DNA of 64,000 bases from the NCBI RefSeq assembly GCF_029267515.1, contig NZ_JAJUIS010000005.1:124001-188000 (forward strand), given 5' to 3'. This DNA comes from Seleniivibrio woodruffii (GTDB lineage: Bacteria; Chrysiogenota; Deferribacteres; Deferribacterales; Geovibrionaceae). Below are positions 4,101-26,760 of this stretch, in pieces. Position numbers and translations under genes: made by a program. How positions within the stretch are numbered: the first letter of the stretch is position 1; each line of letters begins with the position of its first letter. Under the pieces are notes generated by a model, which did not search any database, was not told the origin of the DNA, and was given only the letters and a program-made list of their open reading frames with translations.

Positions 4101-4275
4101 CGGGGGAGCGCCCCGACCACTCTGTAAAGACTATGACCTGAACGTCGCTGAGATCGGGTATCGCATCCAGAGGGGTCTTTTTCGCAGACCACAACCCAGC
4201 ACCCACCGCCGCCAGAATGAACAGTATCACCAGAAACTTGTTTCTGGCGGAAAAACCGATAAGTTTCTCAATCAT
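1147..4275 (-). CDS. cusA: Copper/silver efflux RND transporter, inner-membrane subunit
   Basis: 1042-residue heavy-metal RND pump (HME family) driving metal export by proton influx. Visible are the N-terminal helix, paired periplasmic domains, the helix-4 relay GAMVDAAIVMVEN and the twelve-helix layout. The three methionines known for Cu(I)/Ag(I) binding in E. coli CusA have counterparts here in FYMPTTLPG, GLSMAET and RIDMLSTGIK. This argues for copper/silver rather than zinc/cobalt (CzcA). The start chosen is ATG 4273-4275, which shares one base with the cusB stop (TGATG), giving translational coupling; GTG directly upstream is possible. It is the last gene of the operon and is followed by a terminator. 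Confidence 0.93.
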   Translation of the reverse strand: MIEKLIGFSARNKFLVILFILAAVGAGLWSAKKTPLDAIPDLSDVQVIVFTEWSGRSPDLVEDQITYPIVSSLLAAPKVKVVRGYSFFGFSYVYAIFDDGTDIYWARSRVLENISKISGKLPPDVNPALGPDATGVGWIYQYALVDKSGRHDLSELRSYQDWYLKYALEEVKGVAELASVGGQVKEYQINIDPDKLRGYGISLNRIVDAVRDSNRDTGGRSVELSGRDFMVKGIGYIKNPDDIGNIVIKNDGMGVPVLVSDVASVETGPAMRRGIADFNGEGEAVGGVVVMRYGENALNVINNVKEKIEALKPSLPEGVEIVPVYDRSTLIVDSIKTLRDKLIEEIIIVSLVCIVFLFHFRSALVAILTLPVAIVMSFIMFRWLGITSNIMSLGGIAIAIGAMVDAAIVMVENAHKQLEHNPDADRKEVIIAAAQKVGKPLFFSLLIITVSFLPVFALEAQEGRLFKPLAYTKTFSMMFASILSVTLVPALMVIFIKGKIRHEQDNPITKALVFLYNPFVQFALKYRYLVMALAVISMVATYPVVRKLGSEFMPVLNEGTIFYMPTTLPGISASEAAKSLQAQNGLIKSVPEVDAVFGKAGNATTATDPAGLSMAETVITLKPHDQWRKGMTFEKLTDELNDKVKVAGWVNSWTMPIKARIDMLSTGIKTPVGIKVFGADPAELQKIGQQLESSLMNVDGTRSVYSERTDGGYYLYIEPDMFRMSRYGITVEDVNMVIESAIGGMPVTKTVEGRERYPVAVRYKKAFRNDVESIKNVLVPVGGMNGQANYIPLGDVADVYLKSGPDMLKEENGMLVSYVYVDLKQGVDVGSYVKRAMEQTDKTIKLPQGYTLRWSGEYESMQRVKEKLKLAVPLTLGLIFMLLYLNFRSVTKTAIVMLSVPFALVGGFLYLYFLGYNMSVAVWVGLIALAGVAAETGVVMIVYLDEAYDEWTARGQMNNDEDLKAAVVYGAVQRVRPKVMTVATLIIGLVPIMWATGSGADVMKRIAAPMIGGMVTSTILTLVIIPALYFSWKKWEIKKRTV

Positions 4276-5396
4276 CACTGCACCTTGGCAGGTTTAATAC
4301 CTTTAAGCTGCGCCTCGGAATCTAACAGGAAGTTCGCGCCCCTTGCCACAACGTCGTTGGCTTTCAGACCCCTGCGTATCTCGTAGAAACCGTCGGCTTT
4401 CGCTCCGGTGACTATCACGCGGGGTTCAAATTTTCCTGCACCCTTTGAAACGAAAACTATCTTGCGCCTGCCGTCGTCCATAACCGCATCCTCTTCAACT
4501 TTAAGCACTTTCCCTGACTTAACGCTGAGTACCACGTCGCCGTACATGGCGGGTTTAAGCATGTTTTTGCGGTTATTCACCGGAAAACGGACTTTCAGAG
4601 TTCTGCTGCTGGGGGACATTTCCGGATAGATGTAGTCAGCCCGAATGTCAAACGCAGTATCCGGCTGGTTTGCCGGAGTGAATTTCGCTGTTGCGCCCTG
4701 ACGGATGAATTTCATATCCTCTTCGTAAACGTCAGCTATCACCCACATACGGTCGGTCGATGCAAGCGTAAAGAGTGCCATACCAGGCTGAACCATCATT
4801 CCTGCGGAAACGTTTTTTGCAAGTACGTATCCGTTCGAGGGGCTGTATACGGAAACCGTGCGGCGGGGTTTTCCAGTGCGCTCAAGCTCGCGTATCTGCG
4901 CTTCGCTCATGTCCCAATATTTAAGCCTTGCCCGCGCACCTGCCGCAAGCTGGTTCGCATCGTTTGCAAACACGCCGCTGTATGCGTCCTGCTGCTGTCC
5001 TTTAAGTCCGTTGGCATGGCGCAGAAAAGAGAGATATTCCTCCTGTACTGCAACCATTTCAGGACTGTATACCTCGGCTATCTTCGCGCCTCTGCCCACG
5101 GTTTTTCCCGTATAGTCCAGATACAGCCGTTCAATCCAGCCGCCGAACTTCGTATTTACAGTGAAAGTGGACGTTTCGTCAGTGTTCACGATTCCAGGCA
5201 GCTTTATGGATTTTGTGCTGTCGCCGTATTTCACTTTTGTAAGGCGCACACCCATTTTCTGAAGAATGGCGGGCTTTATCTCAAGGAGCTTCTGCTCGTC
5301 AAAAGCGTCGAACTCGTCCGCAAAAGCGGACAGAGCCAGCGCAAACAGCGCAAAAAGCGTCAGTGCGTATATCTTAATCCCCGATGTTCGTTCCAT
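4275..5396 (-). CDS. cusB: Copper/silver efflux periplasmic adaptor
   Basis: 373-residue membrane fusion protein linking CusA to the outer-membrane channel. It has an N-terminal signal sequence (residues about 8-26, ending SAFA), a barrel-sandwich region with TKFGGWIERLYL and GYVLAKNVSAGMMVQPG, and a helical hairpin between (SPEMVAVQEEYLSF). Met residues are frequent, as expected for a CusB that also handles copper. The gene overlaps cusC by 23 bases at its start and cusA by one base at its stop. A GGGAGGG site precedes the ATG. Confidence 0.9.
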   Translation of the reverse strand: MERTSGIKIYALTLFALFALALSAFADEFDAFDEQKLLEIKPAILQKMGVRLTKVKYGDSTKSIKLPGIVNTDETSTFTVNTKFGGWIERLYLDYTGKTVGRGAKIAEVYSPEMVAVQEEYLSFLRHANGLKGQQQDAYSGVFANDANQLAAGARARLKYWDMSEAQIRELERTGKPRRTVSVYSPSNGYVLAKNVSAGMMVQPGMALFTLASTDRMWVIADVYEEDMKFIRQGATAKFTPANQPDTAFDIRADYIYPEMSPSSRTLKVRFPVNNRKNMLKPAMYGDVVLSVKSGKVLKVEEDAVMDDGRRKIVFVSKGAGKFEPRVIVTGAKADGFYEIRRGLKANDVVARGANFLLDSEAQLKGIKPAKVQ

Positions 5397-6630
5397 AGAG
5401 CTTCCCTCCCGTAAGCACGTTGAGCCTGCTGAGACTCTTTTGTCTCTCGGAATATTTTTCGAGATATTTCATTCTGTATTCGACGGACGTGTTCACAGCG
5501 GCGATAACGTCCGCTGCGGAACCTCTGCCCTGCCTGTATGCGGCGAGCGCCGCGTCTCTCGTCTGGTCAGCTTTGGCTGAAATGCCTGACTGATAGATGT
5601 CCATGATGCGCTTTGAAGCGTCTGAGGATGCAGTAAGCTCCGTTATCATGCTTCTCAGCTCGTGGCGCATGTTGTAATAGGTCGCGTCCGCTTTGAGCTT
5701 CTGCGCTTTCGCCTCGTTTATGGCGGGAAGCTGGCGCGTTTTATAGTAAAGAGGGATGTTAAAACCTATGCTTGCGGAATATACGTCGGACATTGTGTAT
5801 CCGGGTCTTGGTTCATAGCCGAGGCTGACCGTGAAGTCGGGATATTTTTCCAGTTCCTTCATTTTCAGGTTCGCCTCCATGGCACTGACCTCGTTCTTCA
5901 TACTTTTGAGGGTGACGGAGCTTTCCACCGCCATCTGATAAAGGTTCTGCCCGTCGAGGTTAATCTCTTTTTCCGGCAGAAGGGCAAATTCACCGAAATC
6001 GTCGGAATCCATGCCCGTAACATGGGCGAGGGAGCTTTTCAGCATCCGCTCTTTTTCGTTCATCATCTCAAGCGCTTCAATCACCATATATTTTTCGCGC
6101 TGAACCATCAGAACGTCCTTTGAATCCATCATGCCGGAGCTGTATTTCGCCTGTGCGGAACTCTCCGTCATCTGTATCAGCTTCATCTTTGTGTTCAGCA
6201 GTTTTTTCGATTCCTGAACGGTATAAAGGTCGAGGTAGAGTGACATGACGGAATTTACAACCTCCAGCTTTTCTGCGCGTATGCTCTCGCGCAGAGCCTG
6301 AGTTTTATATTTCGCCTCAAGCTGTTTCGCGTCCAGCTTGCCGAAGAACGGGAACATCTGGCTCACCATAACGGTGTATCTGGACATCCCTTCCCTGCCG
6401 ACTGTGTAGTTTGTGCCCTCGTTAACTATGCCGAGGGTGACCATGGGGTCGTTCAGGCTTCCGGCATAGCTTTCGGCTGACTCCGAAGCGCTCACTCCGT
6501 ATTTCAATGATTCCAGCTTTATATTTTTTGAAAGGGCGGTTTCGGTAAGGCTGTTAATATCCGCCGTTTCAGCCTGTGCCACCCCTGCCATAAGAATGAA
6601 AATTGTTAACAGATATGCTTGTATCATCAT
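5374..6630 (-). CDS. Outer-membrane efflux channel of the TolC/CusC family
   Basis: 418 residues with a cleavable signal peptide (ends AQA at about residue 20), then long coiled-coil helices typical of the two-repeat TolC fold (NSVMSLYLDLYTVQE; AAYRQGRGSAADVIAA). No lipobox is seen, unlike E. coli CusC, so it is a non-lipidated member. GGAGG lies 6 bases before the ATG at 6630. It is the second gene of the copper operon and overlaps cusB. Confidence 0.88.
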   Translation of the reverse strand: MMIQAYLLTIFILMAGVAQAETADINSLTETALSKNIKLESLKYGVSASESAESYAGSLNDPMVTLGIVNEGTNYTVGREGMSRYTVMVSQMFPFFGKLDAKQLEAKYKTQALRESIRAEKLEVVNSVMSLYLDLYTVQESKKLLNTKMKLIQMTESSAQAKYSSGMMDSKDVLMVQREKYMVIEALEMMNEKERMLKSSLAHVTGMDSDDFGEFALLPEKEINLDGQNLYQMAVESSVTLKSMKNEVSAMEANLKMKELEKYPDFTVSLGYEPRPGYTMSDVYSASIGFNIPLYYKTRQLPAINEAKAQKLKADATYYNMRHELRSMITELTASSDASKRIMDIYQSGISAKADQTRDAALAAYRQGRGSAADVIAAVNTSVEYRMKYLEKYSERQKSLSRLNVLTGGKLYGTNIGD

Positions 6631-13645: not shown

Positions 13646-14836
13646 ATGAAATTTTTCAGAAATATTTTACTTATTTTGTCAATACTTTCTCTGGCTGCCT
13701 GCGGCGGCGAAAAGAAACAGGAGACCCGCAAACCGCTGTCTGTAAGAGTTTCACCAGTAAAGCAAGTTGACGATACATACAAAATTAGCGCATCCGGTGT
13801 GATAACCTCACAGGATAACCCTTCAAAGGTATCGTTCATGGTGAGCGGACGGGTGATTAAGGCTATTCCCAGAGAGGGTGACTACGTTCGGGCTGGGCAG
13901 GTTCTGGCGGAGCTTGAGGCGGCAGATTACAAAAGCAGTCTGGACAAGGCGAACGCCGCCGCCGACATGGCACAGGCGGCATATATGAAAGCAAAATCCC
14001 CGGCACGCGCCGAGCAGCTTGCACAGGCGAAGATAGCATATGACAGAGCTGCTGACGAGTACAGCCGGATGAAAATGCTTTATGACAACAAGAGCCTAGC
14101 ACCCAACGACTTTGAAAAGTTTCAGGCGGCATATGAATCGGCAAAGCAGCAGTATGATATGGCGAAAACAGGCGCACAGCCTGAGGACAAGGCACAGGCG
14201 AAAGCCGGATATGAACAGGCTATGGCATATGTCAGCATCGCACGGAAGGCGCTGAACGACACTGTGCTTAAAGCCCCTGTAAGCGGGTTTGTGACAAAGC
14301 GCCTCTGCGAAGCGGGGGAAACCATACAGGCGGGCTATCCCGTGTTTGAGATATCGCCTCTGGATCCTGTTGAAGTGAACGCAGGTATAGCTGAAACGGA
14401 TATCCGTTTTGCATCCGTTGGTCAGGCGGCTCAGGTTTCAGTTCCTGCACTTGCCGATAAAAAATTCAGCGGAACAGTCCGCGTGATAAACGTTTCCGCG
14501 GATCCCGCCACCAGAACCTATATGACGAGAATCACAGTGCCCAACCCCGACAAAATACTGCGTCTGGGGATGGTGGCTGAGATCACGATAGATACGAAAC
14601 AGCCGTTCAAAGCAATGACGGTGCCTCTTAACGCTGTCCTGCGCGACCCGCAGGGCGCAGCCATTGTCTACGTCTATTATCCTGACAAAAAGAAGGCGTA
14701 TTCAAAGCAGGTGGAAACAGGCTCGGTATACGGACAGGAGGCTGTCATAAAATCAGGTCTTAAAGGTAACGAGCTTATTGTAATCGCCGGACAAAACAAA
14801 CTTGCCGACGGGCTGGATGTCAGCCCTGTTAAATAG
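13646..14836 (+). CDS. RND efflux periplasmic adaptor lipoprotein (AcrA/MexA family)
   Basis: 396 residues. Lipoprotein signal with lipobox SLAAC (lipidated C19). Then a beta-barrel and lipoyl half (VSFMVSGRVIKAIPREGDYVRAGQVLAEL), a long helical hairpin (residues about 85-200, Ala/Gln-rich) and the second lipoyl half (LKAPVSGFVTKRLCEAGETIQAGYPVF). It joins the inner-membrane pump encoded 9 bases downstream to the outer-membrane channel fused to that pump. Substrate not predictable. Confidence 0.92.
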   Translation: MKFFRNILLILSILSLAACGGEKKQETRKPLSVRVSPVKQVDDTYKISASGVITSQDNPSKVSFMVSGRVIKAIPREGDYVRAGQVLAELEAADYKSSLDKANAAADMAQAAYMKAKSPARAEQLAQAKIAYDRAADEYSRMKMLYDNKSLAPNDFEKFQAAYESAKQQYDMAKTGAQPEDKAQAKAGYEQAMAYVSIARKALNDTVLKAPVSGFVTKRLCEAGETIQAGYPVFEISPLDPVEVNAGIAETDIRFASVGQAAQVSVPALADKKFSGTVRVINVSADPATRTYMTRITVPNPDKILRLGMVAEITIDTKQPFKAMTVPLNAVLRDPQGAAIVYVYYPDKKKAYSKQVETGSVYGQEAVIKSGLKGNELIVIAGQNKLADGLDVSPVK

Positions 14837-14845
14837 AGGTTTGTC

Positions 14846-17800
14846 ATGAACCTCGTAAAATCATCGCTGAAATACCCATCAGTCGCGCTTTTCATGGCGT
14901 TTCTGCTGCTCTGCACCGGATTGTATGCGTTCTTTACCATGCCAAAGACCGAAGACCCGTCCATCACTATCCGCACCGGACTTGTAATAGCGTCATACCC
15001 CGGCGCAACCACCGAAGAGGTTGAAAAGCAGGTTACGAAGGTGCTTGAAAAGCACATCTTCAAATATCAGGAGGTCTACAAGGCTAAGACCTATTCCACC
15101 AGCCGCCCCGGCATTGTCATAATCAACGTGGAACTGGAGGACAGCGTTAAAAACGCAGACCTGTTCTGGGCGGAACTCCGCCACGAGATGAACGAAGCCG
15201 CTTTCACGGAGCTTCCGCGCGGGGTGCGCGGGGTTATGGTGGTGTCGGATTTCGGCGACACTGTGGCGATGCTCATTGCAGTCCACGGCGAAAACTACAC
15301 ATACGCACAGCTTAAAGACTATGCCGACAGGATTCAGGACGAGATGCGCACAGTGCGGGAAGTGGGCAAGCTGGCGCTTTACGGCGACAAAGAGGAACAG
15401 ATACGCATCACTGGCGACCTGAAACGGATGGCGCAATTCTCAGTTACGCCCTCCGCCATGATTCAAACGGTGCAGGCGCACAACGTAACAGGCGCGGCAG
15501 GCACTCTGGACACTGACACAACATCCGTACCCGTTAAGACAAACGGCGAATACGCATCCCTTGACGACATACGCAATACGCTGATAAACGTGTCCCCGAC
15601 AGGTCAGCCTCTTTATGTCAGAGACATAGCCGACGTTACGAGAACCTACGAAGATTCTGATTTTAAGGTGCGCTACGACGGGAAGCCCTGTGTGATAATC
15701 TCCGTTGAGATGCAGAAGGGCAACAACATCGTGAAGCTGGGCGAAAGCCTTTCGGGTGTGTTCGACAGGCTGAACAGAATCCTCCCCCCAGACATAAAGC
15801 TGGATCTCATAGCCGACCAGCCGCAGGTGGTTTCCGACAGGATGGAGTCCCTCACTCACGAATTTCTTCTGGCGATAGCCTCAGTAATAATCGTAACAAT
15901 AATACTTCTCCCAATCAGAGTCGCCCTTATAGCGGCTCTTGCCATACCTGTAACACTGCTGACAACAATTGCGATGATGAACTTCTTCGACATAGCGCTC
16001 CATCAGGTGTCCATCGCGTCCCTTATCCTTGTGCTGGGCATAGTGGTTGACGACGCCATAGTGATAGCCGACAACTACGTCGATCTGCTAGACAGAAAGG
16101 TGACGGGGGAAGAGGTGGGCTGGCGCGCTGTCGGCGAGGTGCTGATTCCCGTTCTGACAGCCACCGTAACCATCATCTGCGCGTTCCTGCCGATGCTGAT
16201 TCTGACAGGTTCCGTGGGCGAGTTCATACAGGCGTTGCCGCTCACCGTAACCATAGCTCTCACAACGTCTTTCATCGTGGCGACCATGCTCACCCCAATA
16301 ATCTGCCGTTTCTTCATCAAAAAGGGACTGCACTCTGAAACCAAAGAGAAAAAATTCAGCCTTCTGGACTCCTTACAGTCCATGTACGGTCAGAACATGC
16401 GCTTTTTCATGCGCTATAAATCATTAGCCATAACCATCGGCATAGTCTCATTTGCCTGCGGGCTTTACCTCTACATGCACATCCCGCAGGAGTTCTTCCC
16501 GTCCGCGGAACGCAATCAGTTCACCATAGACGTGTGGATGCCGCAGGGCACCAAAACCGACAGCACCGACGAAGCCGTTGCCAGCATCGAAAATATCCTT
16601 AAAGACACGTCGGGCGTTAAGCATTACGCTTCGTTCATAGGGCAGAGCGCGCCGCGTTTCTACTATAACGTAAACCCCCAGCAGCCGGACACAGCTTATG
16701 CTCAGATAATCGTAAACACCGAATCGGTGGAAGCCACAAAGAAACTGGTTGGCAGTCTGAGCGGCGAGCTTGACAGGGAGATACCCGAAGCGCTCGTGCT
16801 GGTGAAGGAACTGCAGCAGGGACAGCAGATGGAGGCACCTATAGAGGTGCGTATCTCAGGCTATGACCTGCCGACACTCAAGAAAACCGCAGAGGACGTT
16901 TCTGAAATAATGCGCAAAGTTCCATACAGCAGAGACATATACACCAACTATTTCAACGATTCAGGTATGGCTGACGTGCAGGTGAACAACGAGCTTGCAA
17001 ACCGCCTCGGTGTTACGAACTACGGCGTATCCGGTACTCTGGATGCCGCTCTGGACGGGCAGATAATCAGCATCTACCACGAGGGCGACAGAACCATCCC
17101 CATAATATTCAGGCTGCCGGAGGACAAACGCAAATCCTTCGGCGATATCAGCGATTCATACGTTGCGTCCTCCGTTACGGGCAAAGGGATAGCCGTTAAG
17201 GCGTTTGCCGACATCAGACCCGAATGGCAGACAAGCCGTCTTGTGCGGCGCAACGGCGTGCGCACCATAACAATCAACGCGTTCATCAGGAAGGGGCACT
17301 ATGCCTCGGAGATGCTGAACGAAATCCGACCTGAAATAGAGCGGCTCAACCTGCCGGAAGGCTATAAAATAAGCTACGGCGGCGAAAACTCCAATCAGGA
17401 GGAGACCATGCCGCAGATGATAAAGGCGCTGGGCATAAGCCTTCTTGCAATATTCATCGTAATGCTGGTGCAGTTCCGCAATTTCAGCGAACCGCTTATA
17501 GTAATGTCGTCGATACCTCTCTCCATCCTTGGTGCAATGGCGGGGCTTTTCATAACGGGCAACCCGTTCGGCTTCACCGCCTTTATGGGTGTGATAAGCC
17601 TGAGCGGCATAGTGGTCAGAAACTCCATCATACTGGTGGACTACATAAAAGACCGGATTGCGGAGGGGCACCCCATCGAGCTTGCAGCTATGGAGGCGGG
17701 ACAGCGCAGACTGCGCCCCATCTTCCTTACGACGATGGCGGCAGCGGTTGGAGTTATTCCCATGATACTCTCCGGATCGACCCTGTGGAGTCCCCTTGCA

Positions 17801-19204
17801 AGCGTTATGGCTGTGGGGCTGATATTCTCCATGTTCTTCACACTGCTTGTGGTGCCCGTGCTTTATGTCATTGTTATGACTAAGAAATCAAAAAATATCA
17901 CGGCTGCCGTAATCGCCCTCTTCCTGCTGGCACCCGCCGCACACGCGGAAACTATAAATATGACACTGGAACAGGCGCTGGCAGCGGCAATGGAAAACAG
18001 CCGCGTGATAAAGATAGCCAAGGCTCGAATAGATGAGGCGGAGGGCAAGTTGACAGGCGCGCAGGCGGATTACTTTCCGCAGGTGAGGATATCCGGTTCG
18101 TACACAGACACGCTTCAGGACAATCTGGCGGTCATTCCAGCAGGCGACCTTGGTTCCGTGGCTGGTTTCTCACTTCCAGCATCTGACTATGACATAGACT
18201 CATCCGGCGGCACTGCAATGGCATATGGCATAATCGCACAGCCGCTCACCCAGCTTCTCAGGATAAAAGAGAACGTCGGCGCAGCGAACGCAGACAAAAA
18301 AATATCAGAAGCCGATATGAAAAAAGCCCGCAGCGAGATAGCTTATGCGGTGAAAAACCTCTATTACGGACTTCTTATAGCAGACGCACAGAAATCTGCG
18401 GCACAGGCAGGACAGAACGCCGCACAGCTCGCCCTGAAAGAGGCGCAGGATGGAGTGAATTCCGGCAGTGTCCTCGATGTTGCGGTCATTGAGGCACGGG
18501 CGGCGCTTCTGCAAAGCAGACAAAACCTGATGGCGGCGCAGAACAGTTATGAAAACTATAACGCAGACCTCAACACCCTGACAGGACAGCCAGCGGGCAC
18601 CTTTATTGTTCCATCGGAAGTAACTCAGGAGTTCGCAGAGACAGCCAGCCGTAGGGAATACATGGACATGGCTGCGGCTTCCAACCCCGACGTGCTGGCG
18701 GCGAAAGAGACTCTGGCAAAAGCGCGCCACGGGCAGAAAGCCGCGGTTTACGAATACATACCCGACGTTACCCTGTTTGCGGCGGACATATATACAGACG
18801 GCGTTTCATACCTTAACGACAACATAACCGTGGTCGGGGTGAAAATGGACTGGAATATTCTTGACTGGGGTAAAAAGCGCGGGAACAAAATATCACGCGA
18901 TTCTCAGGCGGCTCAGGCATCCCAGAATCTTCTGAGGGTGCGGGAACAGACGAAAGCTGACATCATAAAGGCATATAACAGGATACGGCAGACTGAGCAG
19001 ATGACGGAAGTTGCGGGGGAAGCGTTGAAACTAAGCGAGGAGCAACTCAGGATAAACGCGGACAGATACGCCGCTGGAGTTATAAGCGAGGCGGCATACG
19101 CTAAGGCGCAGGCGTATGTTGAAAAGGCGCGGGCGGAAAGCATCGGTGCAGAGCTTAACTATCTGCTTGCAATAGACAATATCGACAAGCTCACTGCAAA
19201 ATAA
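14846..19204 (+). CDS. RND inner-membrane transporter fused in frame to a TolC-type outer-membrane channel
   Basis: 1452 residues in one uninterrupted frame. Residues 1 to about 1010 are a full AcrB/HAE1-like pump: N-terminal helix, periplasmic loops, helix-4 LGIVVDDAIVIADNYVD and the last helix FSMFFTLLVVPVLYVIV. Residues 1011-1034 (MTKKSKN, a hydrophobic core, then APAAHA) look like a signal peptide with a cleavage site AHA/ET before E1035. The rest (about 418 residues) is a TolC-fold channel with two coiled-coil repeats. The internal Met codon (17876) has no ribosome site. Cleavage by signal peptidase would free the channel into the periplasm. The adaptor is the gene upstream. Usual lengths are about 1030 and 450. 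Confidence 0.88.
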   Translation: MNLVKSSLKYPSVALFMAFLLLCTGLYAFFTMPKTEDPSITIRTGLVIASYPGATTEEVEKQVTKVLEKHIFKYQEVYKAKTYSTSRPGIVIINVELEDSVKNADLFWAELRHEMNEAAFTELPRGVRGVMVVSDFGDTVAMLIAVHGENYTYAQLKDYADRIQDEMRTVREVGKLALYGDKEEQIRITGDLKRMAQFSVTPSAMIQTVQAHNVTGAAGTLDTDTTSVPVKTNGEYASLDDIRNTLINVSPTGQPLYVRDIADVTRTYEDSDFKVRYDGKPCVIISVEMQKGNNIVKLGESLSGVFDRLNRILPPDIKLDLIADQPQVVSDRMESLTHEFLLAIASVIIVTIILLPIRVALIAALAIPVTLLTTIAMMNFFDIALHQVSIASLILVLGIVVDDAIVIADNYVDLLDRKVTGEEVGWRAVGEVLIPVLTATVTIICAFLPMLILTGSVGEFIQALPLTVTIALTTSFIVATMLTPIICRFFIKKGLHSETKEKKFSLLDSLQSMYGQNMRFFMRYKSLAITIGIVSFACGLYLYMHIPQEFFPSAERNQFTIDVWMPQGTKTDSTDEAVASIENILKDTSGVKHYASFIGQSAPRFYYNVNPQQPDTAYAQIIVNTESVEATKKLVGSLSGELDREIPEALVLVKELQQGQQMEAPIEVRISGYDLPTLKKTAEDVSEIMRKVPYSRDIYTNYFNDSGMADVQVNNELANRLGVTNYGVSGTLDAALDGQIISIYHEGDRTIPIIFRLPEDKRKSFGDISDSYVASSVTGKGIAVKAFADIRPEWQTSRLVRRNGVRTITINAFIRKGHYASEMLNEIRPEIERLNLPEGYKISYGGENSNQEETMPQMIKALGISLLAIFIVMLVQFRNFSEPLIVMSSIPLSILGAMAGLFITGNPFGFTAFMGVISLSGIVVRNSIILVDYIKDRIAEGHPIELAAMEAGQRRLRPIFLTTMAAAVGVIPMILSGSTLWSPLASVMAVGLIFSMFFTLLVVPVLYVIVMTKKSKNITAAVIALFLLAPAAHAETINMTLEQALAAAMENSRVIKIAKARIDEAEGKLTGAQADYFPQVRISGSYTDTLQDNLAVIPAGDLGSVAGFSLPASDYDIDSSGGTAMAYGIIAQPLTQLLRIKENVGAANADKKISEADMKKARSEIAYAVKNLYYGLLIADAQKSAAQAGQNAAQLALKEAQDGVNSGSVLDVAVIEARAALLQSRQNLMAAQNSYENYNADLNTLTGQPAGTFIVPSEVTQEFAETASRREYMDMAAASNPDVLAAKETLAKARHGQKAAVYEYIPDVTLFAADIYTDGVSYLNDNITVVGVKMDWNILDWGKKRGNKISRDSQAAQASQNLLRVREQTKADIIKAYNRIRQTEQMTEVAGEALKLSEEQLRINADRYAAGVISEAAYAKAQAYVEKARAESIGAELNYLLAIDNIDKLTAK

Positions 19205-19205
19205 C

Positions 19206-20054
19206 TCAGCCAGTGGTGCGCAGCAGCGAACATCCGCCGTCGTTTCTGAAACGCTCCCTTATGGCGCTTGGCGACGCTCCGAAGCGTTTTCTGAACATCC
19301 GGCTGAAATACAGCGGGTCGGTATATCCGGCACTGCCTGCTATCTCGCTTACGTTCGCATCGCTGGTGATAAGCATATCACGCGCCCTGTTCAGCCTGTA
19401 TGTGTTCAGATAGTCACCCGGTCCCACTCCTGCAAATTTACTGAATATATAGAAAAGTCTGTTCTCATTGACACCGAACTGTTCAGCAAGCTCGCGCACT
19501 GACAGCGGGTCGGTGTAATGCTCGTGTATATACTGGGAAACACTGCCGAAAAGCTCCTTTGCGTCACAGTTCTGCCGTCCTCCGGCACAGACGAACATTT
19601 CCTCCAGCACACACCGGAAAAGCATCTCCGACCGGAACACCGACAATGTATCGGGATGGGTATACGCCCGCCACAGCCTCCAGAGTAGCTCCGTCAGCCG
19701 CGGGCTGTTGCCCGTTGAAATCTCAAAGTGCATGTCACCCATACGCATATTCTCAGGTTCAGACGTAACAGCTTCATAAAAAACGATTATATATTCCCAC
19801 CTGCTTTTCCCCAGCACCAGCTTGTCAAGGGTCATGTTCGCCCCGCCGTGAACCACCGTACCTGGTGAGATTATGTACGGCGTGCCGTTAAAGGTGAACC
19901 GCGCCTTGCCAGCCAGCGGAAAAACGAACACCGGAAACGGTGCGCTCATCTGTGTGTGGGAACATCCCGCCCCTTTGGTGTGGTGATGCACACCCATAAC
20001 CTTATACGAAACGGTTGAAAAATAGTTTATCAGGTTGCTCTGCTCAACGTGCAT
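19206..20054 (-). CDS. AraC-family transcriptional regulator of the siderophore locus
   Basis: 282 residues. N-terminal cupin-like sensing half (HHHTKGAGCSHTQMSAPFPVFVFPLAGKA region) and C-terminal double helix-turn-helix (LSVRELAEQFGVNENRLFYIFSKF and VSEIAGSAGYTDPLYFSRMFRKRFG). It is encoded 2 bases after the esterase gene on the same strand, so it belongs to the iron-uptake operon and probably activates it when the siderophore is present, as related regulators do. Start ATG at 20054 has AAAGGTGA upstream. Its 3' end is one base from the RND-TolC stop, convergent. Confidence 0.88.
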   Translation of the reverse strand: MHVEQSNLINYFSTVSYKVMGVHHHTKGAGCSHTQMSAPFPVFVFPLAGKARFTFNGTPYIISPGTVVHGGANMTLDKLVLGKSRWEYIIVFYEAVTSEPENMRMGDMHFEISTGNSPRLTELLWRLWRAYTHPDTLSVFRSEMLFRCVLEEMFVCAGGRQNCDAKELFGSVSQYIHEHYTDPLSVRELAEQFGVNENRLFYIFSKFAGVGPGDYLNTYRLNRARDMLITSDANVSEIAGSAGYTDPLYFSRMFRKRFGASPSAIRERFRNDGGCSLLRTTG

Positions 20055-20056
20055 TG

Positions 20057-20953
20057 TCAGTCACCTTTTAAAAAAAGCGCCGCTTCCAGCGAAACGGAGA
20101 AAAGCGGACCGTGTGAAAGATATCCGTATTCGCTGTACTGCGTTTTCATTCCTGCCGCCGAAAGCGCCCTTGTCACTTTCAGTGCGGCATCCTCCGGCGC
20201 ATATGAATAAAGCCGCTTTCTGAGCGCCACCCTTTCGCTGTCGCCCTGCGCAGGGGTATACCCATCCGCAGCGGCTCCTTTCAGCATCAGCAAAGTACCG
20301 TTAAGCCCTGTCAGTCCGGTTATTCTGTCATAAAAGGCTCCCCTCTCCCACCAGAGTGAAGGATCGGCGGAAACGTATCTGCTGAAAAGCTGCGGACGCG
20401 CAGACAGAGCAGAAAGAACGAACAGTCCTCCGTAGGAATGACCGAAAAGTACCCTTCTGTCCCTGTCAATGTGCGCCCTTTTCTCCGACAGGGGGAAAAC
20501 CGTTCTCTCTATAAAATCGATGAATTGTTCCGCGCCGCCGCCTGTGCGGGCGGGGTCAAGCTCATCCTGAACAGGCCTGCCGTCCGCAGACGGTGTGAAA
20601 TCAAAAGTTCTCGACGGCATATGGAAAAGCACGTCCTCGTCATACCCTATCGCCACTATCACGGGCGGGTCGTTTTCAGACAGCTTTTTAAGCTGCCCGT
20701 CTGTGATATGGTGAATCACAGCGTTCCCGTCAACAGCGTATACCGCGCGGTATCCCTTTTCGGAAGCCGCCGCCTTCGGCACTCCGGTTATTATCCTGTA
20801 TCTTCTCCCGCCGTCCGCGGAAACAGCTTTGTCGTAATAAAACGTGTAATACTGGGAATCCCGTCCGTCTGTGTATTTCGCTTTCTCAAACATCGGTTCC
20901 GCCCAAACGGTACATGCCGCCAGAAGAACATACAGAAAAACAACGTATCTCAT
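20057..20953 (-). CDS. Periplasmic siderophore esterase, IroE-like alpha/beta hydrolase
   Basis: 298 residues with a signal peptide (MRYVVFLYVLLAACTVWA). The fold is that of IroE/Fes esterases: nucleophile S173 in GHSYGG, acid region WWERGAFYD, and the catalytic His in YLSHGPLF near the C-terminus. Such enzymes cut catecholate tri-ester siderophores such as enterobactin or salmochelin to release iron. It follows the receptor gene, but a strong terminator lies between them directly before its own AGGAG site. No siderophore synthesis gene is in the window, so the substrate may be foreign. Confidence 0.82.
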   Translation of the reverse strand: MRYVVFLYVLLAACTVWAEPMFEKAKYTDGRDSQYYTFYYDKAVSADGGRRYRIITGVPKAAASEKGYRAVYAVDGNAVIHHITDGQLKKLSENDPPVIVAIGYDEDVLFHMPSRTFDFTPSADGRPVQDELDPARTGGGAEQFIDFIERTVFPLSEKRAHIDRDRRVLFGHSYGGLFVLSALSARPQLFSRYVSADPSLWWERGAFYDRITGLTGLNGTLLMLKGAAADGYTPAQGDSERVALRKRLYSYAPEDAALKVTRALSAAGMKTQYSEYGYLSHGPLFSVSLEAALFLKGD

Positions 20954-20963
20954 TAATACTCCT

Positions 20964-20994
20964 GAAAAAAACTGCCGCGTTCCTGCGCGGCAGT
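20964..20994 (-). terminator. Terminator between the receptor and the esterase
   Basis: ACTGCCGCG (20971-20979) pairs perfectly with CGCGGCAGT (20986-20994) around a 6-base loop. On the minus strand it is followed by seven T, ending one base before the AGGAG of the esterase gene. No room is left for a promoter between it and the esterase, so esterase and AraC must depend on read-through or on a promoter inside the receptor gene. Confidence 0.85.
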
Positions 20995-21007
20995 CTCACA
21001 TTTATCA

Positions 21008-23065
21008 TCAGAATCTGAGTGTCATATCCGCCGCAACGCGCAGACCTTCGTCAACCATCCAGTTGCCGTCCAGCCCGCCCGTACGGGTGCGGTCGTCCAC
21101 TGCCACCTTTTTGTCGGTGATGTTGAGCACCGCCAGTTTGAAAGCAACGTATTTGTTAACGTCGTAAACACCGCCTATATCATAGGTAGCAGCGCCCGGA
21201 CGGGTTCTTGAGTTCATCGCGCCGTTGCGGAACGCTGACCAGTACTGCTTGCTCACAACGTTTGCCCTTGTGTAGAGCGAAAGTGATTTAACCGGTTTCC
21301 AGTCGAGCTGTGCATTGAACATGTGCTCCGGCGTTTTGTCCAGCGGTTTTCCGTCCAGAGAACTGCCGTCGTATGCGGGTTCGCCGCCTTTACGCTCGGA
21401 ATCGGTATAAGTGTAGTTAGCACCGAATTTCAACTTTTTTGTGAGCGGCATATTGAATGTGACCTCAACGCCTCTCATGTTCACTTCGTCTATGTTGTCA
21501 TAAACGTAGATATATCTGCTGGGCACCAGCGGGTCAACCACGCCTGTGCTGAAGCTGGAGACCTTGTCTTTAAGGTCGTTGTTGTACACTGTGAAACCAA
21601 AGTTCATTCCGGTTGGCGCATCGTATCTGATACCCACTTCCTCTGTGACGCTTGTTTCGGGGTCAAGGTCGGAATTGCCGCAAAGGGTTCCCGCCTGCTG
21701 TGTTCCGCCTCCTGTGGTCATACAATATCCTTCGGTGGTCTGGCGCACTGTGGGAGCCTTAAAGCCCATTGCAACGCCGCCTCTCAGCGTCCATCTGTCG
21801 GTGAGTTTATATACAGTGTACACTCTGGGTGTCCAGTTGGAGCCGTATCTCTCGTCGTCGTCCATACGCACGCCTGCTGTGATAGCAAGTTTATCCGTAA
21901 GGAAATATTCGTCCTCAAGATACAGCGCATATGAATCTATGGATACGTCGTCGGTGTTCGTCGGATATCCTGAAATTGAATCCTGCTTGCCTATGCCCTC
22001 AATCTCCGCTTTCATAAGCTGCCCGCCTGTGCGCAGGGTGTGCTTTGTAAAGTTATATGACAGTCCCGCGTCCAGTGTTGAGTTGGTGAGTTCCGGAACA
22101 ACGGCGCTCTTCGTGCCGTCTGTCCAGTTTTCAAGCTCCGCTATCTCCTGAGACAGCACGAGGCTTGTTGTCGCGCTGCCGTATTTACCGTCGTGGCTCA
22201 CAGACCAGTGTTTTCTGGTGTGTTCAGACTTTGTGGATGCCGCCGTGTCCGCAAGGGATTTTCCGGCTGTGCGTTCATATGTCAGCGTGTCGTATCCGCC
22301 CTCAACGTTTATCTCGTTGCGGCTGTCGGGTGTTATGGTGAACTTCGCAGTGATATTTTCGTCCTCTTTCCCGTTGCTGCCGCTTGTGGCGGAACCGGGA
22401 TAGTAAACGTCGTCCTCATTGCGGTCGTTCATCTCGCCGTAAAGCTGGAATCCCACCTTGTCTTTAACTATGGGACCTCCTATCCAGAACTGTCTGTTGA
22501 ACGTAGTTCCGATGTCGCCGTCCTTTGGCTGTACAGTGCCGAGGGTGAGCGATCCACTCCATTTTTCAGGCACCTTTTTGGTGATGATGTTGATAACACC
22601 ACCCATCGCCTCTGAACCGTATACAGCGGACATGGGACCTCTGACAACCTCTATGCGCTCAATGGCTTCCAGCGGCGGAATCATGTTCGACTGAACGCCG
22701 CCTGTGCCTCTGTTCATCGTTTCTCTGGTGTTCTGACGTTTGCCGTCAACCAGAATCAGCGTATATTCGCCCGGCATACCCCTTATAACGATATCGGTAT
22801 CGTTGGGCGAGGAACCTGTGATGCTCACGCCCTCCACGTTTTTAAGCAGGTCTGTCACAGAGGATGCGGGAACTTTCGCGATATCCTCTTTCGTTATCAC
22901 GCTGATGCTTGCCGGAGCATCAGCAATATACTGCTCGTAGCCTGTAGCCGTCACAACGACGGGCTTAACCTCCACAGCGTCCTCTGCGTGCGCCGCAAAA
23001 GTACCGAGCGCCATAGACACGGCGAAAATAAAACTCCCGCGTCTGAATAAATTCATTGGCTTCAT
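21008..23065 (-). CDS. TonB-dependent ferric-catecholate siderophore receptor (FepA/IroN-like)
   Basis: 685 residues. Signal peptide ending AAHA; TonB-box region VKPVVVTATGYE; plug domain with IVIRGMPGEYTLILVDGKRQNTRE and IERIEVVRGPMSAVYGSEAMGGVINIITKK; then a 22-strand barrel ending in MTLRF. The plug wording is typical of FepA, IroN and colicin I receptor relatives. Start has GGAGGAAAG. A Fur box (23085-23103) and an extended -10 (23116-23124) stand upstream. Neighbours are the permease, ATPase, binding protein and esterase of the same route. Confidence 0.92.
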   Translation of the reverse strand: MKPMNLFRRGSFIFAVSMALGTFAAHAEDAVEVKPVVVTATGYEQYIADAPASISVITKEDIAKVPASSVTDLLKNVEGVSITGSSPNDTDIVIRGMPGEYTLILVDGKRQNTRETMNRGTGGVQSNMIPPLEAIERIEVVRGPMSAVYGSEAMGGVINIITKKVPEKWSGSLTLGTVQPKDGDIGTTFNRQFWIGGPIVKDKVGFQLYGEMNDRNEDDVYYPGSATSGSNGKEDENITAKFTITPDSRNEINVEGGYDTLTYERTAGKSLADTAASTKSEHTRKHWSVSHDGKYGSATTSLVLSQEIAELENWTDGTKSAVVPELTNSTLDAGLSYNFTKHTLRTGGQLMKAEIEGIGKQDSISGYPTNTDDVSIDSYALYLEDEYFLTDKLAITAGVRMDDDERYGSNWTPRVYTVYKLTDRWTLRGGVAMGFKAPTVRQTTEGYCMTTGGGTQQAGTLCGNSDLDPETSVTEEVGIRYDAPTGMNFGFTVYNNDLKDKVSSFSTGVVDPLVPSRYIYVYDNIDEVNMRGVEVTFNMPLTKKLKFGANYTYTDSERKGGEPAYDGSSLDGKPLDKTPEHMFNAQLDWKPVKSLSLYTRANVVSKQYWSAFRNGAMNSRTRPGAATYDIGGVYDVNKYVAFKLAVLNITDKKVAVDDRTRTGGLDGNWMVDEGLRVAADMTLRF

Positions 23066-23084
23066 CTTTCCTCCAAAACAATTC

Positions 23085-23103
23085 GGTATTGATAATCAGT
23101 ATC
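23085..23103 (-). promoter_or_regulatory. Fur box in front of the FepA-like receptor
   Basis: GGTATTGATAATCAGTATC matches the 19-base E. coli Fur consensus at 16 positions, with inverted arms TTGATA and TATCAA. It covers the expected transcription start of an extended -10 promoter (TGC TATACT on the minus strand, 23116-23124). This predicts repression when iron is plentiful. Confidence 0.8.
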
Positions 23104-23189
23104 AACTTGCGGCGAAGTATAGCAAAATGTTTTAAACAATGGAATGGAACTTTCCTTAAATTTACATGGATTATTCCTGAAATTTTGTA

Positions 23190-24104
23190 TCAGGCGGAAG
23201 TTTTGCTCACTATGCTGCGGATGTCTTTCAGCATAAACATCATGGACTTTGCCCCGCCGTTGGCGAGATACCAGTAGTCAGCGGGAAGATAGGCTATCCT
23301 GCCGTTCCGGTAAGCGTTCGTGGTGCGGATGAGTTTATTTTCAACGTCTTTTTTCACTGCGGATTTCCCTGTTACAACGGAATCCCTGTCCACCACGAAC
23401 AGAAAATCAGGGTTGAGCTTCGCGATGTATTCGCTGTTCACGCTTTTGCCGTGGGTGGAGACCAGAATATTGCCGTCCGCCTGTTTAAGTCCAAGCACGT
23501 CGTGCACTATGCCGAATCTGGAACCCTTGCCGTATGCGCTGAACTTGCCCGCGTTATAAAGTGTGATCAGCCCTCTGCCCTGCTCTTTCGATATGATGGA
23601 GCGCAGTCTGTCCGCCTCTGTTTCGAATTTTTCAACTATCTGCTTCGCCTGTGCATCTTTTCCCCATATCCTGCCGAGGAGCATCGTGTTTGTTTTAAAT
23701 GAACCGACGTAGTTGTTGTTGTCGATGTTTATATTCACCGTGGGCGCTATGCGCGACAGTTTTTCGTGCATCCGCTGCTGTCTGGCGCTTATGATGATGA
23801 GGTCCGGGGACATTCTGTATATCTTCTCTATATCAAAATCCATCACACCGCCCACGTCCGCATATTTCTTATCTTTGAACTCGCCCAGATACGCGGGCAG
23901 ATTGCCCTTTGGCACAGCAGCAACAACGGAGGCAAGCCCAAGCTCCTGCATGGTGTCCAGAGAGCTGTAGTCCATGACGACAACTTTTTTAGGGCTTACC
24001 GGAACCTGATTAGCCACCTTACCTTTAAAAAGCAGCGTGTAGTCCGCCGCAAAAACGGCCTGTGCAGCCAGCAGTAGAACTGCGGCAAAAAACAGCTTTT
24101 TCAT
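23190..24104 (-). CDS. Periplasmic siderophore-binding protein of the CeuE/FatB type
   Basis: 304 residues: signal peptide (MKKLFFAAVLLLAAQAVFA), then a two-lobed binding protein (VVVMDYSSLDTMQELGL, DFDIEKIYRMSPDLIIIS, long linking helix). Related proteins bind enterobactin fragments or other catecholate complexes in the periplasm and pass them to the permease. The signal peptide has no lipobox. It is encoded 13 bases after the ATPase. Iron may be bound directly by protein side chains (His/Tyr) as in CeuE; conserved residues were not checked. Confidence 0.88.
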   Translation of the reverse strand: MKKLFFAAVLLLAAQAVFAADYTLLFKGKVANQVPVSPKKVVVMDYSSLDTMQELGLASVVAAVPKGNLPAYLGEFKDKKYADVGGVMDFDIEKIYRMSPDLIIISARQQRMHEKLSRIAPTVNINIDNNNYVGSFKTNTMLLGRIWGKDAQAKQIVEKFETEADRLRSIISKEQGRGLITLYNAGKFSAYGKGSRFGIVHDVLGLKQADGNILVSTHGKSVNSEYIAKLNPDFLFVVDRDSVVTGKSAVKKDVENKLIRTTNAYRNGRIAYLPADYWYLANGGAKSMMFMLKDIRSIVSKTSA

Positions 24105-24117
24105 ATCTTTACCTCGT

Positions 24118-24876
24118 CTATGTATAATACAGGCAGATCCTGCTGCCGTTCATCTCCCGCACGTCAAATTCCATCCCGAAGATGTCTTTGAGTATTCCGC
24201 TCTCGATCATCTGCTCCACCTTGCCGAATCCGGCGAGTTTGCCGTCTTTCAGCGCCGCAATATAATCCGAATAACAGGAGGCGAAGTTTATATCATGGAT
24301 AACCAGTACAACGGTTTTCCCAAGTTCGTCCGTCAGCCTGCGCAGGGTCTTCATTATCTGCACCGAGTGTTTCATATCCAGATTGTTCAGCGGCTCGTCC
24401 AGCAGAATACAGTCCGTATCCTGCGCAATTATCATTGCGATGAAAGCCCTCTGCCTCTGTCCGCCGCTGAGTGTGTCGATGTACTTATTCTCCGATTCCG
24501 TCAGATCCATATAGCCTATGGCGCGTGAAACGATATCCTCATCCTCCTGCGTAAGCCGTCCGCCGCTGTATGGAAACCTGCCGAAAGAGACAAGCTCCCG
24601 CACCGTGAGTCTTATGTTGATATGGCTGGACTGTTTCAGTATGGATACCCGCTTTGCAAGCTCACTGTCCTCAATGTCCGTTATTGGCATTCCGTCGAGG
24701 TATACCTTGCCGTCTGACTGTTTAATAAGCCGGCTCATTATTGACAAAAGAGTGCTTTTGCCTGCGCCGTTGCTGCCTATGAAAGAGGTTATCTTTCCTT
24801 TTGGAATATCGACGCTGACCCCTTCAACAACCGCCTTTTCGTCATAGAATTTAGATATATTCTCCGTTCTCATCAT
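24118..24876 (-). CDS. ATPase of the ferric-siderophore ABC importer
   Basis: 252 residues: Walker A SFIGSNGAGKST, Q-loop LKQSSH, signature LSGGQRQR, Walker B DCILLDEP, switch His in VVLVIHDINFAS. The C-terminal tail is like that of FecE/CeuD relatives. Its ATGA start overlaps the permease stop by 4 bases. Confidence 0.92.
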   Translation of the reverse strand: MMRTENISKFYDEKAVVEGVSVDIPKGKITSFIGSNGAGKSTLLSIMSRLIKQSDGKVYLDGMPITDIEDSELAKRVSILKQSSHINIRLTVRELVSFGRFPYSGGRLTQEDEDIVSRAIGYMDLTESENKYIDTLSGGQRQRAFIAMIIAQDTDCILLDEPLNNLDMKHSVQIMKTLRRLTDELGKTVVLVIHDINFASCYSDYIAALKDGKLAGFGKVEQMIESGILKDIFGMEFDVREMNGSRICLYYT

Positions 24877-25817
24877 CGTTTGCTCTCCCTTGTGAGAAGA
24901 TAGATAAAGTAGATACCTCCGGTGAAATTGATTATCACCGATATGGTTATATTAAAGTAGAACACGCGCTCAAGGATGAACTGCCCGCCCGCTATGGCAA
25001 TGATTGAAAATAGGGAGGCGCACGCTATAACATACCCGTGCTTATAAGTTTTCATGGTTTCATACGCAAGGTTGCTTACAATTATGCCCAGAAAGGTCAT
25101 CTGCCCAACAAGAGCCGTGGGTATCGCCACCAGCAGGGTTATGATTATCAGAGATTTTTTCACCAGAACGTCATAGGAGATACCGAGGTTGACGGCGTGC
25201 TCCCTGCCCAGAAGCATAACATCCAGCTTTCTCAGCATCGGCACGCAAAACAGCGCCACCAACGCGATTATTACAGCAGAAACACCTATGAGGTCGGCGC
25301 GGACGTTATTAAAGCTGGCAAACATGGTGTCCTGCACTATCGAGTATTCGTTTGGGTCTATGAGCATCTGCATAAAGACAGTGAGACTGCGGAACAGCGT
25401 CCACATGACGACACCCACCAGCATCAGAAAGAATACGTTCCCTTTGCGCACGAAAACCAGCCTGTAGAGAAAAAACGTAAACAGCATCAGACTTGCCGCA
25501 GATACGGTGAAGTTGAAGACCTCGTTCACCATCATGAACCCGCCGCCGCCGAATAAGAACAGCGCCACGGTTTGCAGAAAAAGATATACCGCATCGAATC
25601 CCATCACCGAAGGCGTGAGGATGCGGTTGAACGTTATCGTCTGGAAAATCACAGAGGAATAAGCCACCGCAACGCCTGTCAGCACCATAGCGGCTACCTT
25701 TGCGCCCCGTTCGGGCAGTATGAAAGAGAGGTCGCTTCCCGCATCGTAAAAGATGAACAGGAGCACACAGACAAGTGAAGCCGCAAAAAGCACGGCGAGT
25801 TTTACACTATCCCGCAT
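24873..25817 (-). CDS. Siderophore ABC importer permease, second subunit (FecCD family)
   Basis: 314 residues, about nine to ten membrane helices, with GREHAVNLGISYDVLVKKSL before the coupling helix and FLGIIVSNLAYETMKTYKH in the family core. It overlaps the first permease gene by 11 bases and the ATPase by 4, so all three are coupled. It forms the membrane pore as a heterodimer with the 26760 gene product, as CeuB and CeuC do. Confidence 0.9.
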   Translation of the reverse strand: MRDSVKLAVLFAASLVCVLLFIFYDAGSDLSFILPERGAKVAAMVLTGVAVAYSSVIFQTITFNRILTPSVMGFDAVYLFLQTVALFLFGGGGFMMVNEVFNFTVSAASLMLFTFFLYRLVFVRKGNVFFLMLVGVVMWTLFRSLTVFMQMLIDPNEYSIVQDTMFASFNNVRADLIGVSAVIIALVALFCVPMLRKLDVMLLGREHAVNLGISYDVLVKKSLIIITLLVAIPTALVGQMTFLGIIVSNLAYETMKTYKHGYVIACASLFSIIAIAGGQFILERVFYFNITISVIINFTGGIYFIYLLTRESKR

Positions 25818-26760
25818 TTACGCGCCTCCCCAGAATGAGATAAAGGAAAATCGCACCGCCGATTATCCCCACCATCACGCTTACGGATATCTCATAGGGC
25901 GCCATCAGTGTTCTGCCGAGAATATCGCACACAAGAAGGAACGCCGCACCGGAAAGCGCTGTCAGCGGAAGGGTTTTCCGCAGGTTATCGCCGTACAGGA
26001 TGCTGATTATGTTCGGCACGATAAGCCCGACAAAGGGTATCATCCCCACCGTGAGCACTATCACCGCCGTCACGCATGAAACTATCACCAGCCCCAGCCG
26101 GAACATAGTATTGTAGTTCATGCCGAGATTAACTGCGAAGCTCTTTCCCATGCCCATCAGGGTGAACCTGTCCGCATAGATATAAGCCGCCGCCAGAAGC
26201 GGGATGCTGACGTACATTATTTCGTAGCGTCCCTGCATAACAGACGAGAAATCACCGTGGAGCCAGGATGCCATACTGTGCACCACATTGAACTGGAGAC
26301 CGATAAAGGTGGTCACCGAATCCAGAATGTTGCCGAAAATTATCCCCAAAAGGGGCACGAACACCAGATTTTTAAATTTTATCCGCTCCGCCATGGTCAT
26401 AAACACCGCCGAAGCAAGAAGAGTCACGCCAAGGGAAACGGAAAGCCGCTGATACGTCCCGCCATCCGGAAAGATGAGCATCGAGAGCATTATTCCAAGC
26501 GCCGCCGCATCCATTGTGCCCGCCGTTGTGAGGGAAACGAATCTGTTGTGGGACATCTGCTGCATTATCACCCCGCAGATACTCATGGACGCACCCGCGA
26601 TTATAACCGCGGCGAGCCGCGGGATACGGCTTGCGACCATTACAAGGGACTGACGGTCTGACATTGTGAAGATATCCGAAACGGAAATTTCCGTGTACCC
26701 AATGAAAAGCGACCAGCACCCAAGAAGGATAACCACCGCCAGCAAAACAATAAATTTCAT
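25807..26760 (-). CDS. Siderophore ABC importer permease, first subunit (FecCD family)
   Basis: 317 residues, multiple membrane helices. Recognisable family motifs are the early GASMSICGVIMQQMSHNRFV, the region before the coupling helix MGMGKSFAVNLGMNYNTM, and GMIPFVGLIVPNIISILYGD. It is the first gene of the leftward uptake operon, divergent from exbB1 across a 156-base region holding two Fur boxes. A fair -35 (TTGACA, 26823-26828) lies upstream, but its -10 is poor. Confidence 0.9.
   Translation of the reverse strand: MKFIVLLAVVILLGCWSLFIGYTEISVSDIFTMSDRQSLVMVASRIPRLAAVIIAGASMSICGVIMQQMSHNRFVSLTTAGTMDAAALGIMLSMLIFPDGGTYQRLSVSLGVTLLASAVFMTMAERIKFKNLVFVPLLGIIFGNILDSVTTFIGLQFNVVHSMASWLHGDFSSVMQGRYEIMYVSIPLLAAAYIYADRFTLMGMGKSFAVNLGMNYNTMFRLGLVIVSCVTAVIVLTVGMIPFVGLIVPNIISILYGDNLRKTLPLTALSGAAFLLVCDILGRTLMAPYEISVSVMVGIIGGAIFLYLILGRRVNAG

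Follow-up and report, generated by a model that had tools for sequence, protein, structure and literature searches.

A single open reading frame for an RND pump and a TolC-type channel, with a predicted internal signal peptide between them, in Seleniivibrio woodruffii and other bacteria

An RND pump and its outer-membrane channel belong to different membranes, and a reading frame that encodes both raises the question of how one chain could supply the two proteins. Such a frame lies in a stretch of 64,000 nucleotides of Seleniivibrio woodruffii (contig NZ_JAJUIS010000005.1, positions 124,001 to 188,000, hereafter the window), where positions 14846-19204 of the forward strand form a single, uninterrupted, ATG-started frame of 1452 amino acid codons that closes with a TAA stop codon (19202-19204). 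Residues 1-1010 (14846-17875) constitute an RND pump domain. The Pfam profile ACR_tran matches residues 5-1010 over its positions 3-1020 of 1021 (E 2.8e-194, 648 bits against a gathering threshold of 28), and 12 transmembrane (TM) helices are expected from homology, with D402/D403 in TM4 and R925 in TM10. Residues 1035-1452 (17948-19201) correspond to a mature channel of the OEP/TolC type, with an OEP match (E 1.1e-48, 166 bits against a gathering threshold of 22) in two stretches that reach residue 1450. The AF2 model of residues 1011-1452, built with 31 relatives as input (pLDDT 85.3), shows the layout of a TolC protomer, with two beta hairpins and long helices. In Foldseek searches its best solved matches were TolC structures (E. 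coli TolC, TMq 0.74, E 3e-18), and OprM, CmeC and CusC were also matched. A preliminary description had read the frame as a full AcrB-like pump up to about residue 1010, an internal signal peptide and a whole TolC-type channel; the ORF, the Pfam matches and the residues at the junction all agree with it.

That description had also raised a missed stop or frameshift at the junction. Six genomes of the Deferribacterota, all from one family, carry the fusion as an uninterrupted frame: the one studied here, two others of its genus (91 and 86% identity) and three of another genus (55%). It was absent from two further genomes of the genus studied here. A wide scan of 84,980 species genomes gave 59 loci, and all intact full-length matches of at least 48% identity were single frames of 1454-1546 amino acids, with two others running off contig ends. 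These matches belong to Geobacterales, Desulfuromonadales, Syntrophaceae, Acidobacteriota, Nitrospirota and Deferribacterota; outside the Deferribacterota (Geobacterales, Acidobacteriota, Nitrospirota and others) the fusion was found at 40-55% identity. Complete matches of 33% identity or less were ordinary RNDs of about 1015-1060 amino acids. In phylum samples, a match at E 1e-165 or better was present in 9 of 297, 11 of 247 and 2 of 198 genomes, and most of these matches were fused. Viral contigs searched for relatives of the fusion contained none. The same architecture is found in an NCBI-annotated protein of 1467 amino acids from a Persicobacter plasmid (WP_338399011.1), labelled only as a permease. 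Because the fusion is one frame in several phyla, it is a genuine arrangement that recurs, and sequencing error does not explain it. An assembly artefact masking a stop or a frameshift would have to recur identically in independent assemblies at 40-91% identity and in the Persicobacter protein, and its probability is negligible; we rejected it because the frame is equally open in the assemblies at 91, 86 and 55% and in more than 30 further genomes. The fusion family is widespread but sparse and recurs across several phyla, so the view that this fusion is rare is not borne out; its members usually bear an annotation as permease only.

What separates the two domains is a segment of 24 residues (1011-1034, 17876-17947, forward strand), MTKKSKNITAAVIALFLLAPAAHA, which alignments and column entropies delimit as a putative internal signal peptide. 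The junction reads ..LYVIV-MTKKSKN-ITAAVIALFLLAPAAHA|ET: a positive n-region, predicted to be cytosolic, is followed by a short h-region and by A1032-H-A1034, and E1035-T1036 come after the signal peptide. The positive n-region, the hydrophobic h-region and the small residues at -3 and -1 are those of a signal peptidase I substrate, and signal peptidase I would cut between A1034 and E1035 (17947/17948, within 17945-17950, the codon of E1035 beginning at 17948). The family alignments comprised 43 non-redundant fused sequences, 35 of which were used for column statistics. Position -1 is Ala in 34 of the 35 members (0.19 bits), and position -3 is Ala in 29 and Val in four (0.88 bits), while the linker drifts in length and sequence and positions -2, -4 and -5 carry 2.2-3.1 bits. 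Among the 1449 positions scanned, this is the only site with a conserved small-x-small pair between variable columns. Moreover, all 43 sequences have a net positive charge (+1 to +6) in the loop that precedes the h-region. Less canonical sites occur in a few members (ARG|E in L079, LNA|E in L094, and L135-L138). Signal peptides were called by motif and conservation, with no trained predictor; as an automatic cleavage-site picker misplaced a few rows (e.g. L057, L066 and L136-L138), counts from alignment columns were preferred. The cut before E1035 that had been predicted earlier is thus the best-supported reading, given that both Ala columns are kept while their neighbours vary, that the loop is positive throughout, that the expected topology fits and that unfused sister OEPs carry a signal peptide at the same place.

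With high probability, then, the frame encodes a polyprotein that signal peptidase I would split co-translationally into pump and channel in a 1:1 ratio, working with a separate lipoprotein adaptor. The ribosome would first make the 12-TM pump, whose C-terminus is expected to end in the cytosol, as that of AcrB does. Residues 1011-1034 would then act as an internal signal peptide, the h-region crossing from inside to outside, and the next 418 residues would leave through SecYEG. After the cut behind A1034, the spent signal helix would stay as the C-terminal tail of the pump, and the released channel would trimerise, enter the outer membrane and dock through the separately encoded adaptor. Pump and channel would thereby be made one to one, as needed by a pump trimer working with a channel trimer. 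The genome has one gene for signal peptidase I (Peptidase_S26).

A chain that stays uncut, as a covalent tether between pump and channel across both membranes, could account for the fusion being kept over a large evolutionary distance, since it would fix their pairing. However, only about five residues lie between the membrane helix and the first helix of the channel, and the N-terminus of TolC is far from the inner membrane in the established structures of tripartite pumps. The h-region is short, and the Ala columns at -3 and -1 would need no conservation in a tether. In the AF2 model of residues 1-1040 (pLDDT 74.5), the signal segment is a short helix with pLDDT under 50, and the model lends no support to a thirteenth pump helix packed against the others. 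We regard a permanent tether as very improbable. There is a small chance that the precursor is itself functional for some time before it is cut. Slow or regulated processing would then keep each channel close to the pump it was made with, so that cognate pairs assemble together and the channel does not mix with the dozen or so further OEP channels of the cell. On this view, the fusion would have arisen repeatedly because this hand-over was selected for, in addition to 1:1 synthesis.

The predicted polyprotein also has to be weighed against a channel made mainly from an internal start, here the ATG at 17876, in which case the long ORF would be incidental and little of the channel would come from the fused chain. 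All six Deferribacterota keep an in-frame ATG (M1011) exactly at the start of the signal peptide, which would yield a textbook signal peptide of 24 amino acids; many other members have a GTG at V1008, and unfused sisters begin their OEP where it overlaps the RND gene. Against this, the duplex energies of that ATG with the anti-Shine-Dalgarno sequence lie between 0.9 and -3.0 kcal/mol in the six genomes, that is, there is no Shine-Dalgarno site, and K or another residue replaces M1011 in most of the family. We compared these energies at junction start codons with those at in-frame background start codons of the same genes. Pump starts had a mean of -7.0 kcal/mol, with 35 of 35 at -4 or below; the junction start codons had a mean of -2.9 against a background of -2.6 kcal/mol (p 0.31), and in four of the 35 members the loop lacks a start codon altogether. 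Internal ribosome start as a general mechanism is thus unsupported by these energies. No member has a stop at the junction, so that translation of the pump must continue into the channel and the fused product is made in any case. As the main source of channel, an internal start is improbable, although weak internal starting may occur in the Deferribacterota, where the ATG sits at M1011 without a Shine-Dalgarno site. Relatives with two genes and a ribosome site at the junction had been named as the pattern that would speak against a single product; the close relatives are not built in this way, and no such site rises above background. As for the one-to-one synthesis proposed earlier, the sequence data favour negligible internal initiation, but the ATG at M1011 in the Deferribacterota leaves them short of proof.

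The third component of the system is encoded directly upstream. The gene at 13646-14836 (forward strand) specifies a periplasmic adaptor of the MFP type with a lipoprotein-type N-terminus, ..LSLAACGG (HlyD_D23, E 7.8e-30; TIGR01730 RND_mfp, 202.7 bits against a cut-off of 94.9), and it ends 9 bp before the pump ATG. A Shine-Dalgarno-like AGAGG (14835-14839, forward strand; duplex energy -6.5 kcal/mol) overlaps the adaptor stop and lies 6 nt 5' of the RND start. Adaptor, pump and channel of a tripartite system are encoded together here, and an MFP gene is also upstream in L153, L154 and L147. By homology, the product is a putative RND efflux pump, driven by protons and paired with a lipoprotein adaptor. 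An AraC-type gene is convergent downstream of the pump ORF and a PAS histidine kinase lies upstream; in several relatives, the neighbouring regulators are of the TetR or MarR type. The adjoining region of the window (19206-26760, reverse strand) is an apparent siderophore cluster, with the AraC-type regulator, a putative esterase, a TonB receptor, a Peripla_BP_2 protein, an ATPase and two permease genes; adjacency alone raises the idea that the pump may be linked to siderophore traffic.

The same genome contains five other full RND pumps, none of which has a frame long enough for a channel, and about a dozen other OEP proteins. A second RND system lies in the window itself (1147-6630, reverse strand) and shows the usual unfused arrangement in separate genes, for a pump (1147-4278), probably an adaptor (4275-5396) and an OEP (5374-6630), with gene overlaps of 4 and 23 nt. 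Two OEP proteins of genome G000 (C18:12249-13427 and C11:459895-461079) are in frames of 702 and 751 amino acids, which exceeds the length of a plain channel.

The closest unfused relatives (38-40% identity) suggest how the fusion may have arisen. Their gene order is MFP-RND-OEP in L147 and RND then OEP in L148 and L149; the RND stop and the OEP start overlap by 11 nt in L147 and in a 4-nt ATGA in the other two, and the three OEPs have standard N-terminal signal peptides. A merger of frames at such an overlap would give exactly the present anatomy, and the fusion probably arose by merging two frames of an overlapping MFP-RND-OEP operon, with the signal peptide of the channel kept. In an RND tree of 70 rows, the fused state requires seven changes, at least five of them forced by starred branches, counts in which gains are not separable from losses. 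The frame studied here sits in an all-fused clade of 28 rows (SH-aLRT 99), and the CzcA-OEP fusions of Bacteroidota lie elsewhere on the tree, as do the single cases L107, L109 and L110; the junctions of all these likewise end in AxA or xAQ (..NAQ/SAQ/AAQ). In AU tests, with groups named after the tree was seen, a common origin for every fused member of the wider family was rejected (p 2.6e-35), and one that leaves out L107 of the Bacteroidales was not (p 0.157). The RND-OEP fusion thus seems, from these analyses, to have arisen more than once.

Some of the individual cases deserve mention. L107 (G062:C152, Bacteroidales) is an RND-OEP fusion of 1483 amino acids with the junction ..RTSQAQ; its place among unfused sisters points to an independent fusion or to a re-split. 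Next to RND genes in L109 (G062, Bacteroidales), L151 (1467-3905) and L152 (8325-10883), OEP channels carry a large additional N-terminal region. ABC_sub_bind (PF04392) matches L109 and L151 weakly, and the extra length of L152 has no Pfam match. In L109, an RND pump, the ABC_sub_bind-like domain and an OEP share one frame of 1816 amino acids. An efflux channel is an odd place for a domain that resembles a binding protein.

Our search of open-licence papers found no description of a natural RND-OMF fusion or of its processing, and such fusions already exist in databases, as the Persicobacter protein and the Bacteroidota CzcA proteins illustrate. The parts and the type of processing are known; their combination is unusual and recurs. 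If the proposed reading is true, one gene supplies both an inner-membrane pump and an outer-membrane channel through an internal signal peptide in several phyla. Annotation as 'RND permease', seen for WP_338399011.1, hides the channel, and a count of TolC proteins by gene name would miss such products. Mutants of the cleavage site would offer a clean way to ask which of the two matters, the equal synthesis of pump and channel or their physical pairing.

Compared with AcrAB-TolC and MexAB-OprM, the system has the same three parts and a channel whose model matches TolC, whereas in those systems pump and channel are in separate genes and the OMF starts with a signal peptide of its own. The nearest solved chains of the pump domain by sequence search are MexK (9xwg, E 3e-149) and the RND transporter 6vej (E 5e-140), which we take to be TriC. 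MexJK and TriABC-OpmH thus share with the present system the nearest pump domain and the logic of RND, adaptor and TolC-type channel. In that type, the channel is a separate protein common to other systems (PMC8277102), whereas here it forms the C-terminal part of the same chain as the pump. The Bacteroidota fusions of CusA/CzcA (TIGR00914) with OEP, of 1441-1506 amino acids, likewise encode RND and then OEP in a single frame, joined by a signal-peptide-like segment that ends in NAQ/SAQ, but they belong to a metal-type RND branch that is well separated on the tree and are apparently independent. The present pump scores 371.6 with TIGR00914 (cut-off 701.45) and remains below the curated cut-offs of TIGR00915 (412 versus 940), NF033617 (533 versus 1250) and NF000282 (452 versus 1250); it is an RND member outside the HAE1, RND_permease and CzcA curated NCBI subfamilies. 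To our knowledge, the closest mechanism is that of Bradyrhizobium FbcH, a cytochrome b/c1 polyprotein in which a polytopic membrane protein and an exported protein share one chain until signal peptidase cuts it at an internal signal. FbcH differs in that it serves a respiratory complex and its second product stays at the inner membrane, whereas the second product proposed here would proceed to the outer membrane.
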